From contig JAKBBS010000205.1 of the NCBI GenBank assembly GCA_021808425.1, forward strand, positions 1 to 5,723: a stretch of 5,723 nucleotides of DNA. The letters are read 5' to 3'. Source of the DNA: Actinomycetes bacterium (GTDB taxonomy: Bacteria; Actinomycetota; Acidimicrobiia; Acidimicrobiales; Palsa-688). Position numbers and translations under genes: made by a program. Positions 267-5,614 of the stretch are shown piece by piece; position 1 is the stretch's first letter, and each line of letters opens with the position of its first letter. A model generated the notes under the pieces. That model saw only the letters and a list, made by a program, of their open reading frames with translations. It had not been told where the DNA came from and searched no databases.

Positions 267-1787
267 ATGCTCGACGTCGACGAGCACACAGTGCAAAGGG
301 CACTCTTCGCCGCCCACGGCCGTTTCCGTTCCGACCGGGATACCCCGCCCCGATGGTGGCTTGCCGGGGAACGCCCGGTGATGCGAGACGCCCCTGTCCG
401 TGCTCGCCCACCCGGGCCTAAACGGCCGGACCTCTACATCTGGCAGGCGGACGCGCTCCGGGCGTGGGAGGAAGCAGGCGGGCGCGGTGTGATCGAGGCG
501 GTCACCGGCGCCGGCAAGACAATGGTGGGGATTGCAGCCACCCTGGCAGAAATCGACCGGCGGGGCCAGGTGCTCGTCGTGGTGCCCACCGTCGAGCTGC
601 AAGACCAGTGGGTGCAGCAGCTGCGCAAGTTCCTTCCCGGCTCGCGTCCGATCGGTCGTCTCGGCGCGGGAGGCCGGGACCGGCTGTCGGGCCACGACGT
701 CGTCGTGGCGGTCGTCAACACCGCCCGCAGCTACGATTCGATGCCCATCCGCCGCGGCGGGCTGCTCGTCGCCGACGAATGCCACCGCTACGGCAGCGAC
801 GTCAACCGCTTGGCCCTGGACGGTCGCTTCTCGCGACGCCTCGGGTTGAGTGCAACTTACGCGCGCTCCGACAGCGGCAACTCGCAGTGGCTCGACCCGT
901 ACTTCGGCGGTACCTGCTTCCGGTTGGGCTACGCCCGCGCCGTCGCCGAGGGGGTTACAGCCCACTTCGAAGTAGCGCTGATCGGGGTAGAGTTCTCTGC
1001 GCTCGAGCAGTGCACCTACAACGAGCTGACGGACACGATCAGGGTCCTGTGGGTTCGCCTGGTGGAGCATTTCGGCGTCACACCCGAACCCTTCGAGCTG
1101 TTCATGCAGGAAGTCGCCGAGATGGCCGACGGTGGTGGTGAAGGCAGCGCCACCGCGCGGAGATACCGGCAGGCGATGCTGGCCCGGCGGCGTTTGCTGG
1201 CCGACACTCCCGCCAAGGACGAGGCGCTCATCGTCTTGGCGCCCGCAGTTCGGGCTGCGGACAGGGCAATCGTCTTCACCCAAAGTATCGACACCGCGGA
1301 GCGCACAGCTACGGTGCTCGCCGAATGCGGTCTTCGCGCTGGCGTGATCCACTCCAGGCTCCCCGGCGACCAGCGAGCCACCGTGCTCGCCAGATTCGCG
1401 TCGGGTCGCCTCGAGGTTGTGGTAGCTCCACGGCTGCTAGACGAAGGCATCGACGTGCCTGCTGCAGACCTTGCTGTCATAGTCGCTGCCAGTCGCTCCC
1501 GGCGCCAGATGATCCAGCGCATGGGCCGGGTGCTTCGCCGCAAGCCCGACGGGCGGGCTGCACGTTTCGCTGTGCTGTTCGTCGAGGGCACCGTCGAAGA
1601 TCCCAACTCCGGCGCCCACGAAGCGTTTCTCGGAGAGGTCACCGAGGTGGCAGATAGAGTGACATATTTTTCTCCTATCGACCTGCGACGCACGCCAGAC
1701 ATCGTCCGAACGTCGTTACAACACCGAAGAAACGCAGCCTGCACCCCGGCTTCGCCAGCTACGACGGGCCACTCCGGGTGGTCGTGA
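267..1787 (+). CDS. XPB-like superfamily 2 DEAD/DEAH helicase with N-terminal helix-turn-helix
   Basis: Predicted ATP-dependent DNA helicase or translocase. Residues numbered from the ATG at 267: a Q-like YIWQADAL near 57-64, Walker A TGAGKT 80-85, motif Ia VVPTVEL 105-111, DECH box 170-173, motif III SAT 195-197, motif IV IVFTQS 335-340, motif V LDEGIDVPAADLAVI 391-405 and motif VI QRMGRVLRR 417-425. Both RecA-like lobes are therefore complete, with an insert of roughly 100 residues between them. The arrangement resembles the XPB/RAD25 branch, whose members act in DNA repair or, in bacteria, often in defence-type loci. The first ~25 residues (DEHTVQRALFAAHGRF) are the second half of a winged-helix/HTH that continues upstream in frame, so the true start is probably before 267. 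The last ~20 residues are low-complexity and unlike the usual end of such helicases. Function in this locus is unknown; the helicase assignment is firm. Confidence 0.88.
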   Translation: MLDVDEHTVQRALFAAHGRFRSDRDTPPRWWLAGERPVMRDAPVRARPPGPKRPDLYIWQADALRAWEEAGGRGVIEAVTGAGKTMVGIAATLAEIDRRGQVLVVVPTVELQDQWVQQLRKFLPGSRPIGRLGAGGRDRLSGHDVVVAVVNTARSYDSMPIRRGGLLVADECHRYGSDVNRLALDGRFSRRLGLSATYARSDSGNSQWLDPYFGGTCFRLGYARAVAEGVTAHFEVALIGVEFSALEQCTYNELTDTIRVLWVRLVEHFGVTPEPFELFMQEVAEMADGGGEGSATARRYRQAMLARRRLLADTPAKDEALIVLAPAVRAADRAIVFTQSIDTAERTATVLAECGLRAGVIHSRLPGDQRATVLARFASGRLEVVVAPRLLDEGIDVPAADLAVIVAASRSRRQMIQRMGRVLRRKPDGRAARFAVLFVEGTVEDPNSGAHEAFLGEVTEVADRVTYFSPIDLRRTPDIVRTSLQHRRNAACTPASPATTGHSGWS

Positions 1788-2097: not shown

Positions 2098-2331
2098 ATG
2101 CGGTCTACCATCGATAAGGCAGGTCGACTGGTCATTCCCAAGCCACTTCGTGACCGGGTCGGTCTGCAACCGGGCGAAGTCGAGATCGAGGTCGATGGCG
2201 CTGCGCTTCGCGTCGAGCCGGTAGCAGGAGGCCCTCTCGAGCGACGAGACGGGTGGCTGGTAATTCCTAGCTCCGGCGGGGTGCTTACCTCCGACGAGAT
2301 CAGCTGCCTTCGCCATGGCGACCAGAGGTAA
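2098..2331 (+). CDS. vapB: AbrB/MazE-fold antitoxin (VapB type)
   Basis: A 77-residue protein. Residues 1-42 form a SpoVT-AbrB swapped-hairpin DNA-binding domain: MRSTIDKAGRLVIPKPLRDR, then GLQPGEVEIEVDGAALRVEPV, with the characteristic 'D.aGR.viPk.lR...gl.pG' pattern. The remaining ~35 residues (GWLVIPSSGGVLTSDEI...) would be the toxin-binding tail. It overlaps the PIN toxin gene by 17 bases, the usual order for antitoxin then toxin, and would bind and neutralise that toxin while repressing its own promoter. The ATG at 2098 is chosen because the AbrB fold starts immediately and a TAGCAT -10 box sits six bases upstream, implying a leaderless message. Family assignment is firm; autoregulation is inferred from the family. 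Confidence 0.85.
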   Translation: MRSTIDKAGRLVIPKPLRDRVGLQPGEVEIEVDGAALRVEPVAGGPLERRDGWLVIPSSGGVLTSDEISCLRHGDQR

Positions 2332-2746
2332 GATTCTCGACGCTCTCGTCGACACGAGCGTGGCAGTCGCTCTACTCGTGGAGGATCACGAACACCGCCA
2401 TGCCGCGCTGGCGGCGGTGGGCGCAAGGAGGGTCGGGCTCTCAGGTCACGCTCTATTCGAGACCTACTCTGTACTCACCCGTCTTCCATCTCCCAACCGG
2501 CGTTCACCCGCAACAGTCGCCCTTCTTATTCAGGAAAACTTCGCCGTCAGCCGTCAGCTGTCCACTGAAGCGGCAGGCGCCCTATTGGGCAAGTTGGCTC
2601 CTGCGGACATCAGCGGCGGCTCGGTGTACGACGCACTGGTAGCGGCCACCGCACTTGAGAGTGGGCTGCCCCTTCTGACCTGTGACAGACGTGCCCTGCC
2701 CGTCTACCGGGCGCTGGAGGTTCCCTACGAATACATCCTGCGCTGA
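2315..2746 (+). CDS. vapC: VapC-family PIN-domain ribonuclease toxin
   Basis: A 143-residue PIN-domain protein, full length for VapC. The four acidic active-site positions are visible: D13 in ALVDTSVAVALL, E49 in HALFETYSVLTRL, D106 in SVYDALVAATALESGLPLLT and D124 in TCDRRA. The family consists of Mg-dependent RNases that cut tRNA or rRNA and stop growth when the antitoxin is lost. The ATG at 2315 lies inside the end of the antitoxin gene in another frame (17-base overlap); only a poor ribosome-binding site precedes it, so translation is probably coupled to the antitoxin. All catalytic residues are present, so the toxin should be active. The RNA target cannot be read from the sequence. Confidence 0.87.
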   Translation: MATRGKILDALVDTSVAVALLVEDHEHRHAALAAVGARRVGLSGHALFETYSVLTRLPSPNRRSPATVALLIQENFAVSRQLSTEAAGALLGKLAPADISGGSVYDALVAATALESGLPLLTCDRRALPVYRALEVPYEYILR

Positions 2747-3081: not shown

Positions 3082-3489
3082 TCACCCTAGGCTGAGACGC
3101 TCCGTCAGTTGCCCTGTAACGTCGGCAATCACGTCGAAGTCCTTGTCCACGTGCAAGACCGTGAGCCCGGCAAGCTCCGCCGTGGCGGCGACAACGAGGT
3201 CCGGGACGGACGGTCCACGATGGTGCCCGATATCGCCTAGCAGCGCCTGCACCTCAACAGCTCGGCTCTCGCTCGCCGGTGTCAGATACTCGACAGGCAT
3301 CGCAGCTAGCGGCGCTCTCCGCATTGCAGTACGCAAATCGGACCCCGACTTCGCCGAGAAGCCAACCTCCAAGAGGGTGAGGGTCGTGATACGGACCAGC
3401 CCACGGTCAATACGCTCAGCCCACACATCGGCCTCCGGGGTCACACCGAGGCGAGCTAGAGCAGAGGTGTCGATGAGCCATTCGGTCAC
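3082..3489 (-). CDS. vapC: VapC-family PIN-domain ribonuclease toxin (second pair)
   Basis: A 135-residue PIN protein. Active-site acids: D7 in [12 protein letters not shown]41 in [10 protein letters not shown]97 in [20 protein letters not shown] and D115 in [10 protein letters not shown]. The DKDFDxIA ending is typical of actinobacterial VapC proteins that pair with ribbon-helix-helix antitoxins. It is predicted to be a Mg-dependent RNase toxin. The start is GTG at 3489, fixed by the GTGA overlap with the antitoxin stop codon, which indicates translational coupling; the PIN core then begins at residue 4, as is normal. The sequence is unlike that of the other intact VapC in the window, so the two pairs are separate acquisitions and not a recent duplication. 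All catalytic residues are present. Confidence 0.88.
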
Positions 3490-3713
3490 TCCCAGGCGCC
3501 CTTCATTACCTCAGCATCACCAAGGTCAGCGAACACTTCGGCGAACGCCTTGAGGTGCTCGGCGGTCACCCGTTGCGGGCTCGCTACGGCCTCTTGAGCC
3601 AGTCTCCGCCGCAAATACTCGCTTCGCGACAGGCCGAGCCTCGCTGCGCGTGCGTCGAGCGCGGCAACTACATCTTCGGGAACATCACGGACTAGGACGT
3701 CGGTCACGGTCAC
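3486..3713 (-). CDS. vapB: Ribbon-helix-helix antitoxin (VapB type)
   Basis: A 75-residue protein with an N-terminal ribbon-helix-helix: strand TDVLVRDVP (4-12), helix [15 protein letters not shown] (13-27), then [15 protein letters not shown] (28-42). The C-terminal part ([25 protein letters not shown]) would wrap the toxin. It overlaps vapC by four bases. Two in-frame GTG codons compete as start: 3713 and 3707. The strong GGAGG at 3721-3717 lies only 3 bases from the first but 9 from the second, so the protein probably begins at 3707 (VTDVLVRD) and is 73 residues long. It should bind its own promoter as a dimer and neutralise the PIN toxin; this follows from the family. The insertion sequence begins only 46 bp upstream of the annotated start. 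Confidence 0.83.
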
Positions 3714-3754: not shown

Positions 3755-3759
3755 GAGTA
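3755..3759. repeat. Target-site duplication GAGTA, left copy
   Basis: GAGTA directly abuts the left inverted repeat and is repeated at 5615-5619 directly outside the right one. This is the signature of a transposition event with a 5-bp staggered cut. The intact copies suggest the insertion is fairly recent. Confidence 0.85.
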
Positions 3760-3777
3760 GTGGAGTTTCGTACTTCT
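3760..3777 (+). repeat. Left terminal inverted repeat of the IS
   Basis: GTGGAGTTTCGTACTTCT, matching the right end in inverted orientation except at positions 6 (G versus C) and 12 (T versus C). Similarity stops after position 18. The transposase stop codon lies 43 bp further in. Confidence 0.88.
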
Positions 3778-3820
3778 CCGGGTTGTCGTCCCTCGGATGG
3801 AGCCGGTGAGCGGCCCTGCT

Positions 3821-5134
3821 CTACGCCGCGGTCGCCAGAGCATCGAGAAGACCGTCGAGGATTTCTTGGGGAAGTGCCTCGGAAGGTGACACCGGCGTAA
3901 TTCGTTCGGCCCAGAGCACCCGGCGCAGTGAGGCGAGTGCGTCGAGGAAGCTTGGGGTGGCCTTCTTCGGGTACCACGGCCGGGGGATCCAGCTCGTCGC
4001 GGTGCCGAAGGTCGGGATGTACCAGGTCCAGATCGCAGCGTAGAGCCACAGCGACAACGACGCGGCACGCTCTGGTCCCTGGCGTTTCCAGCACTGGGGA
4101 TCTTCGGCACCGAGGCACTGCTTCACCTCTCGGTTGACACACTCGATCGACCAGCGCCCGGCGTAGCGCGAGGCGACATCACCAGGGACGGCGTTGAGGT
4201 CGGTGGTGAAGAAGAAGTCGTCGTGCATGACGCCTTGGGGGTCGCGGACGATGACGAGGAGCACGAGGTTCACCTTGTCCACCGAGTACCACAGCACTGG
4301 GCGGCTCCAGACGAGGAGATCCTTGGTCCGTCCCCGCCACTCGACGGTCGCAGCGCTGAACGTGTCGTTCGTGAGCCCTTCGGCCATCACCTGTGGCGTC
4401 TTGAGACGCGCCCCTCTCATGCGAGGCCGTCCCCGCTTGCCGGTGCGTGGCGGTGGCGCCTCGTAGAGGGCGGCGTCCCGGCGCATCCGGGAGGTGAGGG
4501 TCGTGCGGGGAAGTCCTCGTCCCGCCAAGGTGGCGTACGCTCCGTCGGCACAGAGGCTGAAGGAGCGATCAGGAAGCCAGCTCGCCAGCTCGGCGATGAT
4601 CTCGGTTGCGAGGTCGGTGGTCGTCGGACCACCTTTGCGGTGCAGGCGGACCCCGACGGGCACCCCGATCGGCATCCCGCCCCAGGGCGGAGAGACTCGG
4701 AGGGTGACGACCACGAGGTTCAGGCCGGTCGCGTAGACGACCTTGCTCCTCGTCGAGCGCACCGCGTCTCGGAAGATCCCAGCTCCATCGATCTTTCGGC
4801 CGGACTTCTTGTAGAGCGTGTCGTCGCAGTCGAGGAGGACCTCTCCCTGCGGGCAGAGTACTCCGACCATGTGCAGGACGAGCACCTTCCAGAGCGCGTT
4901 CGTCGACCACCTCGCCGCACGGAAGAAGCGGTGATAGGCGTCGTGTGCCCGCCTGCCCTCGGGATCGCCGGCACATATCATGGCCGTCACTGTGCGGCGC
5001 CCAGGCGCGAGCACCCAACCGGTGAGGACCGTGGCGAACAGGGAGAAGCTCGGCGCGCTGAAGCACCCCAGCCCTAGCGAGACGAGCGCGTCCCAGGCCG
5101 AGCTCGATCGGCGAAACCTCGTTGCACGTGTCAC
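3821..5134 (-). CDS. DDE transposase, IS4 superfamily (IS701-like)
   Basis: A 437-residue cut-and-paste transposase. Probable catalytic triad: D102 or D104 in VLLDCDDTLYKKSGRK, D197 in SLCADGAYATLAGRG and E331 in RWSIECVNREVKQ. The last lies in an exact Y-(2)-R-(3)-E-(6)-K signature, Y324, R327, E331 and K338, diagnostic of the IS4 superfamily. The N-terminal part (residues ~30-80, with GRRTVTAMI and HDAYHRFFRAARWS) resembles the DNA-binding region of IS701-like transposases, and a basic stretch near 230-245 (TGKRGRPRMRGARLK) lies in the insertion between the second D and the E. The GTG start at 5134 is supported by GGAGG at 5145-5141, six bases away. The frame is uninterrupted, so the enzyme may be active. 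It diverges from the small IS gene and reads toward the second vapBC pair, so read-through could affect those genes. Confidence 0.9.
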   Translation of the reverse strand: MTRATRFRRSSSAWDALVSLGLGCFSAPSFSLFATVLTGWVLAPGRRTVTAMICAGDPEGRRAHDAYHRFFRAARWSTNALWKVLVLHMVGVLCPQGEVLLDCDDTLYKKSGRKIDGAGIFRDAVRSTRSKVVYATGLNLVVVTLRVSPPWGGMPIGVPVGVRLHRKGGPTTTDLATEIIAELASWLPDRSFSLCADGAYATLAGRGLPRTTLTSRMRRDAALYEAPPPRTGKRGRPRMRGARLKTPQVMAEGLTNDTFSAATVEWRGRTKDLLVWSRPVLWYSVDKVNLVLLVIVRDPQGVMHDDFFFTTDLNAVPGDVASRYAGRWSIECVNREVKQCLGAEDPQCWKRQGPERAASLSLWLYAAIWTWYIPTFGTATSWIPRPWYPKKATPSFLDALASLRRVLWAERITPVSPSEALPQEILDGLLDALATAA

Positions 5135-5146
5135 CCGACACCTCCA

Positions 5147-5172
5147 GTCCGTCGGTAGTATGGCCGACGGAC
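5147..5172. promoter_or_regulatory. 9-bp inverted repeat between the divergent IS genes, likely shared operator/promoter
   Basis: GTCCGTCGG (5147-5155) and CCGACGGAC (5164-5172) pair perfectly around TAGTATGG. The centre offers a + strand -10 (TAGTAT, 5156-5161) for the small gene and a weaker minus strand -10 (CATACT, 5162-5157) for the transposase. Ribosome-binding sites flank the repeat: GGAGG at 5145-5141 (minus) and AGGAG at 5175-5179 (plus). A dimeric regulator bound here could control both genes; alternatively the repeat folds in RNA read in from outside and hides the start sites. The repeat is seen, the roles are inferred. Confidence 0.55.
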
Positions 5173-5188
5173 CTAGGAGATAGGGTGG

Positions 5189-5554
5189 ATGGTGGTGACG
5201 ACGACCAAGACAGGGATAAGAGCCGACCGGGCAGCACGGGCCAAGCAGGCCCGCATCGCGAAGGCGCTCTCCGAGCTGGGGTTGGCGTTACCGGGTTCGG
5301 TCGAGGTGCGATCGACGCGCTGTGGAAAGGCGAACTGCCGGTGCAAGGCTGATCCACCCCAGCTGCACGGCCCCTACATCGTCTGGACCCGCAAGGTCGA
5401 CGCGAAGACCGTGACGCGGGTGCTCAGCCCTGACCAGCTCGAGGACTACCGACCGCTCTTTGACAACGCCAAGCGACTCCGGGAACTCGTCACCGAGCTC
5501 CAGAGCCTGACGCTAGACGTCGTCGACAGCGATGACCGCTGGCGCACCCACTGA
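5189..5554 (+). CDS. Small IS-encoded protein with CGKxNCRC motif (DUF6788-like)
   Basis: A 121-residue soluble protein of unknown function. A basic, helical N-terminus (residues 9-32, RADRAARAKQARIAKALSEL) is followed by a probable zinc-binding site: C45, C50 and C52 in RCGKANCRC, with H60 in QLHGPY as a possible fourth ligand. Next come WTRKVDAKTVTRVLS (66-80), PDQLEDYRPLFDNAKRLREL (81-100) and a leucine-rich helix ending near 110. This conserved order matches the family I recall as DUF6788, common in actinobacteria. The ATG at 5189 has AGGAG nine bases upstream. The gene lies inside the terminal repeats of the insertion sequence and diverges from the transposase, so it moves with the element. 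A role as accessory transposition factor or DNA-binding regulator is inferred; there is no known activity. Confidence 0.78.
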   Translation: MVVTTTKTGIRADRAARAKQARIAKALSELGLALPGSVEVRSTRCGKANCRCKADPPQLHGPYIVWTRKVDAKTVTRVLSPDQLEDYRPLFDNAKRLRELVTELQSLTLDVVDSDDRWRTH

Positions 5555-5561
5555 CACTCCC

Positions 5562-5593
5562 GACGCCTGGCGTCCTCCGCCGCGCTGGAGGGC
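5562..5593. terminator. Overlapping inverted repeats after the small IS gene, possible terminator
   Basis: GACGCC (5562-5567) and GGCGTC (5569-5574) are inverted around one base. GTCCTCC (5572-5578) can also pair with GGAGGGC (5587-5593) through seven base pairs including one G-T. Both lie between the stop codon at 5554 and the right terminal repeat. There is no T-tract, so this could be a weak terminator that keeps transcription inside the element, or a mere result of high GC. Confidence 0.3.
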
Positions 5594-5596
5594 ACC

Positions 5597-5614
5597 AGAA
5601 GTGCGAAAGTCCAC
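5597..5614 (-). repeat. Right terminal inverted repeat of the IS
   Basis: Read on the minus strand this is GTGGACTTTCGCACTTCT, matching the left end at 16 of 18 positions. It begins 43 bases after the stop codon of the small IS gene (42 intervening bases), almost the same distance as between the transposase stop and the left repeat. Confidence 0.88.

Follow-up and report, generated by a model that had tools for sequence, protein, structure and literature searches.

Simple insertion sequences are usually thought to encode only a transposase, and to be restrained by the transposase itself or by weak expression. In Tn3, the resolvase TnpR is encoded divergently from the transposase and acts at the intervening site to control both tnpA and tnpR. 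Tn3 transposition modules can contain embedded toxin-antitoxin pairs, near promoters, that have been proposed to be regulatory (both PMC7157771). For the IS701 family, De Palmenaer et al. (2008; PMC2266710) give a 4-bp target duplication, a length of 1400-1550 bp and a YREK tyrosine in only 4 of 27 elements. Here we describe a two-gene insertion sequence in a 5,723-nucleotide stretch of an Actinomycetes bacterium genome (contig JAKBBS010000205.1; "the window" refers to this whole stretch). The element spans positions 3760-5614 (1855 bp) and encodes, between its ends, an IS701_3-type transposase and, divergently, a small protein of the family DUF6788 (PF20586), to which Pfam assigns no function. 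We consider it somewhat probable that DUF6788 is a DNA-binding autorepressor that limits its mobile element. The genomic settings of DUF6788 and the dyads found upstream of family members are new here.

Most DUF6788 genes that we collected lie close to a recombinase gene. A contig scan with a 20-sequence DUF6788 alignment gave 67 loci (numbered with the prefix L), with neighboring genes in several clusters that were not joined by BLAST. Together with genome searches, and with domains under about 70 aa and duplicate loci left out, 127 distinct near-full copies were kept. A recombinase is encoded within 1.5 kb of 94 of these, and within 300 bp in 86 of the 94. Six further copies adjoin only a protein pair that we call pairX (see below), and 27 have no neighbor of the set, including one with an IS66 transposase (L105), a row that stands outside the 94. 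The association is similar by source (39 of 54 copies from the contig scan, plus five with pairX; 55 of 73 from the genome searches, plus one with pairX), among copies flanked by 600 bp or more upstream and 300 bp or more downstream (73 of 92, with pairX in four more) and in the set under 60% identity (42 of 55, plus one with pairX). Neighbors were labeled using 24 proteins found beside DUF6788 and the window transposase, and six of the 94 labels score under 60 bits. As a control, none of 863 segments of 300 bp, more than 4 kb from DUF6788, was equally near the same proteins; these segments come from 20 hand-picked stretches of DUF6788-carrying genomes and measure the density of the same protein set. 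In the phylum to which the L041 genome (Agrococcus) belongs, 34 of 296 genomes have DUF6788 over its cut-off; in that of the L040 genome (Bacillota) the figure is 8 of 249.

At least nine unlike kinds of recombinase are represented as partners. Among the 94 are ISKra4 (25), IS1634 (23), IS4-like groups (19), IS701 (13), serine recombinases (5), tyrosine recombinases (2) and others. Neighbors scoring over NCBI cut-offs include IS701, ISKra4, IS1634, IS1182, IS5 and IS66, and NCBIfam and Pfam also identify a tyrosine recombinase and a large serine recombinase; the names ISNCY (305.6 against a cut-off of 325) and two IS4/IS1380-like groups (DDE_Tnp_1 in Pfam) are assigned under the NCBI cut-off. 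The recombinase is upstream and divergent in 57 of the 94, and downstream in the same direction in 36; the one other copy had been assigned to a neighboring element. Three annotated Burkholderiales plasmids encode a DUF5372 or Y4bD/Y4pK gene, then DUF6788, then a serine recombinase, and the association pattern extends to Pseudomonadota. Of seven plasmid places, these are the three with a serine recombinase; at one more a short transposase, upstream and divergent, is annotated, and one record is unannotated there. An earlier reading of the window, made from its sequence only, had proposed that the small protein is an accessory factor of its element. This stands insofar as the small gene is part of the element and members of its family adjoin recombinases, but it was too narrow: an IS4/IS701-type partner in particular is not supported, with many other recombinase kinds present, and we dropped the idea of an IS701-specific partner.

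The element of the window comprises the following features.

3755..3759, no strand: target duplication, left copy (GAGTA), read from the sequence
3760..3777, plus strand: left terminal inverted repeat, GTGGAGTTTCGTACTTCT, with an end motif that recurs in L003, L004, L008 and L010
3821..5134, minus strand: IS701_3-type DDE transposase, 437 aa (NCBIfam NF049999, E 2.5e-81; Pfam DDE_5, E 8.6e-22)
5141..5145, minus strand: probable ribosome-binding site of the transposase gene, GGAGG as read on the minus strand
5147..5172, no strand: dyad GTCCGTCGG-TAGTATGG-CCGACGGAC, proposed operator between the divergent genes (z 4.2, p 0.024)
5156..5161, plus strand: TAGTAT, a -10-like hexamer (TANNNT) in the dyad core, from promoter scoring and weak by itself
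5175..5179, plus strand: probable ribosome-binding site of the DUF6788 gene, AGGAG, as read from the sequence
5189..5554, plus strand: DUF6788 gene, 121 aa, pI 9.7, predicted alpha-beta-beta-beta-alpha (Pfam PF20586, E 1.8e-30; model pLDDT 92.3)
5321..5368, plus strand: C-x4-C-x-C-x7-H motif, codons 45-60, from an alignment of 98 homologues
5597..5614, minus strand: right terminal inverted repeat, reverse complement GTGGACTTTCGCACTTCT, from a repeat search and kept in L002 and L005
5615..5619, no strand: target duplication, right copy (GAGTA), read from the sequence

The terminal repeats match at 16 of 18 bases and both are flanked by GAGTA. Their repeat score (12) only equals the best of 60 shuffles, for which the mean best score is 4.8, and is not overwhelming alone; conservation of the end motif around both genes in relatives is the stronger argument. 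A GTGGACTTTCGCAC-like end motif surrounds both genes in L003, L004, L008 and L010, with the right end also found in L002 and L005, so that the earlier claim of repeats and duplications enclosing both genes is borne out by conservation of the ends. The end search did not reveal a target duplication in L003, L004 or L010, and the left flank of L008 is outside the available sequence. The start codons of the two divergent genes are 54 bp apart.

The transposase scores 273.7 bits against NF049999 (cut-off 170), which places it with IS701 by this profile; it falls under the cut-off of a second IS701 model, NF033540 (61.2 against 150 bits). It has the complete Y-x2-R-x3-E-x6-K signature of the IS4 family proper (YAGRWSIECVNREVK, residues 324-338), confirming the YREK-type DDE transposase that had been read from the sequence. 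Like the IS701 family as described in PMC2266710, the window element combines a match to a DDE transposase profile with terminal repeats and a short target duplication. Unlike that description, the duplication is of 5 bp (6 bp in L009 and L021) rather than 4, and the element is longer, at 1855 bp with two genes. It also differs from most IS701 elements described there in its complete YREK signature and its second gene. Of the IS701 terminal consensus ---YACT-Y--YR, which according to the same paper is not family-wide, ACT is present at one window end and the Y at position 4 is absent. The 5-bp duplication likewise departs from the approximately 10 bp of the IS4 family proper.

Terminal repeats with a clear target duplication surround DUF6788 and its transposase in 7 of 22 loci searched, the other 15 falling short of one or the other. 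These are three IS701 loci (the window, GAGTA; L009, GGGTGT; L021, CTACCT), three ISKra4 loci (L041, TATGTCT; L039, ATTCGATAC; L045, CAACGAAAT) and one IS1634 locus (L033, GTTGTA). In L009 and L021 the 10-base repeat is no better than in shuffled sequence, and the case rests on the target duplication. Near-identical two-gene units occur in separate contigs (L020, L021 and L022, 1892 bp at 99.8%; L006 and L018, 2338 bp at 99.4%), as does the unit of L038 and L043 (2157 bp at 93.6%). The DUF6788 gene and the transposase mobilize as one unit.

In the window the dyad overlaps the predicted promoter directly upstream of the DUF6788 gene (5147-5172), as expected for an autorepressor. An alignment-free search of the 160 bp before the DUF6788 domain, scored against 40 shuffles (minimum p 0.024), found 48 of 125 copies to have a dyad at p ≤ 0.05. 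Random genes have one in 24 of 250 cases (Fisher 1e-10) and divergent gene pairs, a small set, in 1 of 11; downstream of DUF6788 it is seen in 5 of 115 regions, and before transposases lacking DUF6788 in 2 of 32. The DUF6788 copies are related, and a fairer count is 20 of 55, from the set under 60% identity. Dyads precede 20 of 57 divergent copies and 16 of 36 same-direction copies in which DUF6788 is first. They also precede 9 of 24 copies with no neighbor of the set: 4 of the 14 that are adequately flanked and for which no recombinase was found, the IS66 copy L105 (left out of these 14), and four with too short a flank to judge. Because it is present in both arrangements and in some solo copies, the dyad seems tied to DUF6788 more than to any recombinase.

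In the intergenic alignment of the window with L002, L003, L004 and L005, CCGTCGG...CCGACGGA is retained while neighboring bases drift, and the dyad arms are largely conserved in these four relatives. ISKra4 elements have CCTACAG...CTGTAGG or a near variant (19 aligned), and pairX elements have GCACAC...GTGTGC or similar (6 aligned). The dyad resembles the operator of an autorepressor, and such lineage-specific arms would be expected if each protein recognizes its own site. Of 82 dyads, 58 have TANNNT on one strand or the other of the core, compared with 25 of 82 shuffled ones. A sigma-70 score of at least 9 is reached on the DUF6788 strand in 17 of the 82 (1 when shuffled) and on the other strand in 7 (1 when shuffled). 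Sigma-70-like TTGACA-17-TATATT is present in L106, L116 and L118, and opposed promoters in L114. A -10 within the core would place the start of transcription beyond the left arm, which favors a DNA operator over an RNA hairpin.

Terminal repeats and dyads share bases in some ISKra4 elements. In L038 and L043, the terminal repeat contains CGCTGTAGGA, as does the right arm of the dyad upstream, and in L040 eight of these bases, GCTGTAGG, are found in both places. The sharing in L038 and L043 may be due to chance, or may mark an additional binding site at the element ends. Reuse of operator half-sites at the ends of the window element was considered and dropped (GTCCGTCGG is not in its terminal repeats).

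The DUF6788 protein of the window is a clear member of its family (105.5 bits against PF20586, curated cut-off 27.2), and the CGKANCRC, HGPY and WTRK motifs by which the sequence-only reading had characterized it are all present. In the alignment of 98 members, C45, C50 and C52, the core of the C-x4-C-x-C motif, are invariant, and H60, G61, P62 and G36 are kept in at least 90%. C-x4-C-x-C-x7-H is likely a metal site. The median pI of the 98 homologues is 9.8, with values over 8.5 in 95%. The family evolves under purifying selection (dN/dS 0.08-0.32 in ten DUF6788 pairs, comparable to 0.17-0.22 in three transposase pairs). AlphaFold2 predicts helix-strand-strand-strand-helix for the window protein (mean pLDDT 92.3), and the same order of elements plus one short extra helix for the L118 protein, which is 24% identical (mean pLDDT 96.0). 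The weak top Foldseek matches are SRP9/14 proteins, with double-stranded-RNA-binding domains lower (E 0.07 or more). SRP9/14 and double-stranded-RNA-binding domains have the same order of secondary structure, and the Tn916 integrase has a DNA-binding variant of it. We found no match to the window protein in NCBIfam or PHROGs, none to its model at E 0.001 in a viral structure library, none in viral contig scans with both DUF6788 alignments, and a best E of 0.47 in a sequence search of the PDB. In the open-access literature searched, DUF6788 and PF20586 are unnamed, and a search for the IS701 family with an additional orf returned nothing.

On the reading that we favor, DUF6788 would be a small, basic, metal-stabilized DNA-binding protein, probably a dimer. 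In divergent elements it would bind the dyad over the promoter between its own gene and that of the transposase. In same-direction elements with DUF6788 first, it would bind the promoter ahead of both genes. Binding would repress transcription of DUF6788 and the recombinase, and thereby limit transposition. DNA binding, dimerization, metal binding, repression and the effect on transposition are features that we infer. More tentatively, at somewhat under even confidence, DUF6788 may represent a previously unrecognized class of metal-dependent, DNA-binding autorepressor whose fold is its own. It would govern the copy number of mobile elements, have passed between at least nine kinds of recombinase representing three chemistries, and act at a lineage-specific palindromic operator over the -10.

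Of the roles that the sequence-only reading had listed, repression gains from the dyad over a predicted promoter, and targeting or end binding is a less likely role that forms part of the leading alternative. By this alternative, which we consider unlikely, DUF6788 would be a transposition cofactor that binds element ends or target DNA and aids recombinase assembly or site choice. The location of the gene inside the element ends would fit, as would the bases common to terminal repeat and dyad right arm in L038, L043 and L040; the ends of L041, L050 and L039 do not retain these bases. A single exchanged protein serving DDE, serine and tyrosine chemistries is also less likely as a cofactor than as a regulator, and most sampled relatives of these transposases lack DUF6788. 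It is more doubtful still that DUF6788 is a passenger with another job (defense, counter-defense or host benefit) that lies beside transposases by chance. Copies for which no recombinase was found nearby, such as L001 (80% identical to the window protein) and plasmid copies L274 and L275, are what this explanation predicts. Passenger genes usually vary from element to element, whereas two patterns of position and orientation cover 93 of the 94 recombinase-adjacent copies, and the best match of DUF6788 to PADLOC defense profiles has an E of only 0.054.

We consider it very improbable that the transposase binds the dyad and that DUF6788 has nothing to do with it. In favor, transposases in general are known to repress themselves, and in divergent elements the dyad precedes both genes. 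Against this, dyads occur with unlike recombinases, before DUF6788 in same-direction copies and in recombinase-free copies, and they are rare before transposases lacking DUF6788. Least probable is an RNA-binding regulator of a leader hairpin. In its favor, the alpha-beta-beta-beta-alpha order resembles that of the RNA-associated proteins among the weak Foldseek matches; against it, the -10 predicted in most dyad cores should leave the left arm untranscribed in the DUF6788 direction.

Several observations weigh against an autorepressor. DNA binding by DUF6788 is a prediction, and in divergent elements the transposase could occupy the dyad. In 77 of 125 copies the search found no dyad at p ≤ 0.05, including both tyrosine-recombinase copies and four of the five serine ones, and 24 of 82 dyads lack TANNNT in the core on either strand. 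A good -35 was not found for the -10-like hexamer of the window (score 5 of 12). The DUF6788 model has no match at E 0.001 among solved structures in Foldseek. In the three Burkholderiales plasmids DUF6788 is the second gene of the operon, and two of the seven plasmid copies (L274 and L275) are beside no annotated recombinase.

DUF6788 is an exchangeable add-on, confined to subgroups within several families. The searches of insertion sequence families scored at most five candidates per genome, and the fractions with DUF6788 are partial. Among the matches listed, DUF6788 is alongside none of 10 IS701_3 places over the cut-off (296 genomes), 2 of 13 ISKra4 places and 18 of 125 IS1634 rows, all 18 at 268 bits or less; adjacency in ISKra4 and IS1634 was judged by eye from the coordinates of the DUF6788 search. 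Some weaker IS701_3 matches do adjoin DUF6788 (L204, L208 and L216). The sequence-only reading had held that a majority of elements without the small gene would count against it, and at the family level such a majority is seen among these matches. Close relatives of the window element were gathered only via the DUF6788 gene, and in the class of the L001 genome the window transposase was found only as fragments, in 1 of 198 genomes at E 1e-30.

A tree of 117 DUF6788 domains needs 22 changes of recombinase label, compared with a possible minimum of 11. A first labeling gave 23 changes, compared with a mean of 61.3 for shuffled labels; it had row D046 as IS1182 via a neighboring element, relabeled IS701 for the tree. 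The chemistry label (DDE, serine or tyrosine) changes three times. These counts are rough, as the alignment has 93 columns and forks are poorly resolved. Recombinase labels are clustered on the tree yet repeatedly exchanged.

At the pairX loci (L012, L017, L026 634-3716, L027 591-3668 and L076), DUF6788 is divergent from a protein of ~300-370 aa, and a second protein of ~550 aa is present in most. L026 and L027 have about 3.1 kb in common, at 80%. The pairX proteins have no match in Pfam, at best IS1182 in NCBIfam (E 1.6e-6, below the cut-off) and no convincing match in the PDB. By eye, the longer is DDE-like and the shorter slightly like a degenerate tyrosine recombinase; possibly, these loci are an undescribed element type. 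Also observed were group II intron reverse transcriptases near DUF6788 in several genomes and plasmids (L042, L044, L166, L272 and L273). As a further partner beside these five copies they were dropped and not counted, an ISKra4 or serine recombinase being present there.

No recombinase was found near L001 (5001-5357) or L024 (5001-5324). The Alicyclobacillus plasmid gene of L274 (4019-5158) is annotated as DUF6788, is longer than the domain at 1140 bases, and has an HU family protein and helicases as neighbors. The Chlorohelix plasmid gene of L275 (3797-4321) adjoins genes for sulfur metabolism. The genes of L001, L024 and L275 may be remnants, or repressors co-opted by the host.

In the window, the element is preceded by MazE-like plus PIN (2098-2746, plus strand) and FitA/RHH plus PIN (3082-3713, minus strand) toxin-antitoxin pairs identified by Pfam. 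The start of the RHH gene is 46 bp from the left end of the element, which lies upstream of it, and the insertion thus probably hit the control region of that pair. Farther upstream, at 267-1787 (plus strand), is a superfamily 2 helicase (ResIII/Helicase_C in Pfam).

If DUF6788 is an autorepressor, an uncharacterized family would gain a function, and a repressor module shared across unrelated families would mean that elements can pick up copy-number control as a component. Annotators could then separate such two-gene elements from adjacent host genes. The operator prediction is testable with one protein and one short DNA.

Like TnpR of Tn3, as described in PMC7157771, DUF6788 is proposed here as an element-encoded DNA-binding protein that would control both genes, and it is divergent from the transposase. 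Unlike TnpR, it shows no recombinase domain in Pfam, serves many element families and has a predicted rather than described binding site. The likeness to the toxin-antitoxin pairs in the same paper is that of a small module, proposed to be regulatory, inside a transposition module. Unlike those pairs, DUF6788 is a single gene with no toxin partner seen, and it occurs in insertion sequences of several families. By analogy, the closest known comparisons appear to be resolvase control in Tn3 and the toxin-antitoxin pairs embedded in Tn3 elements.

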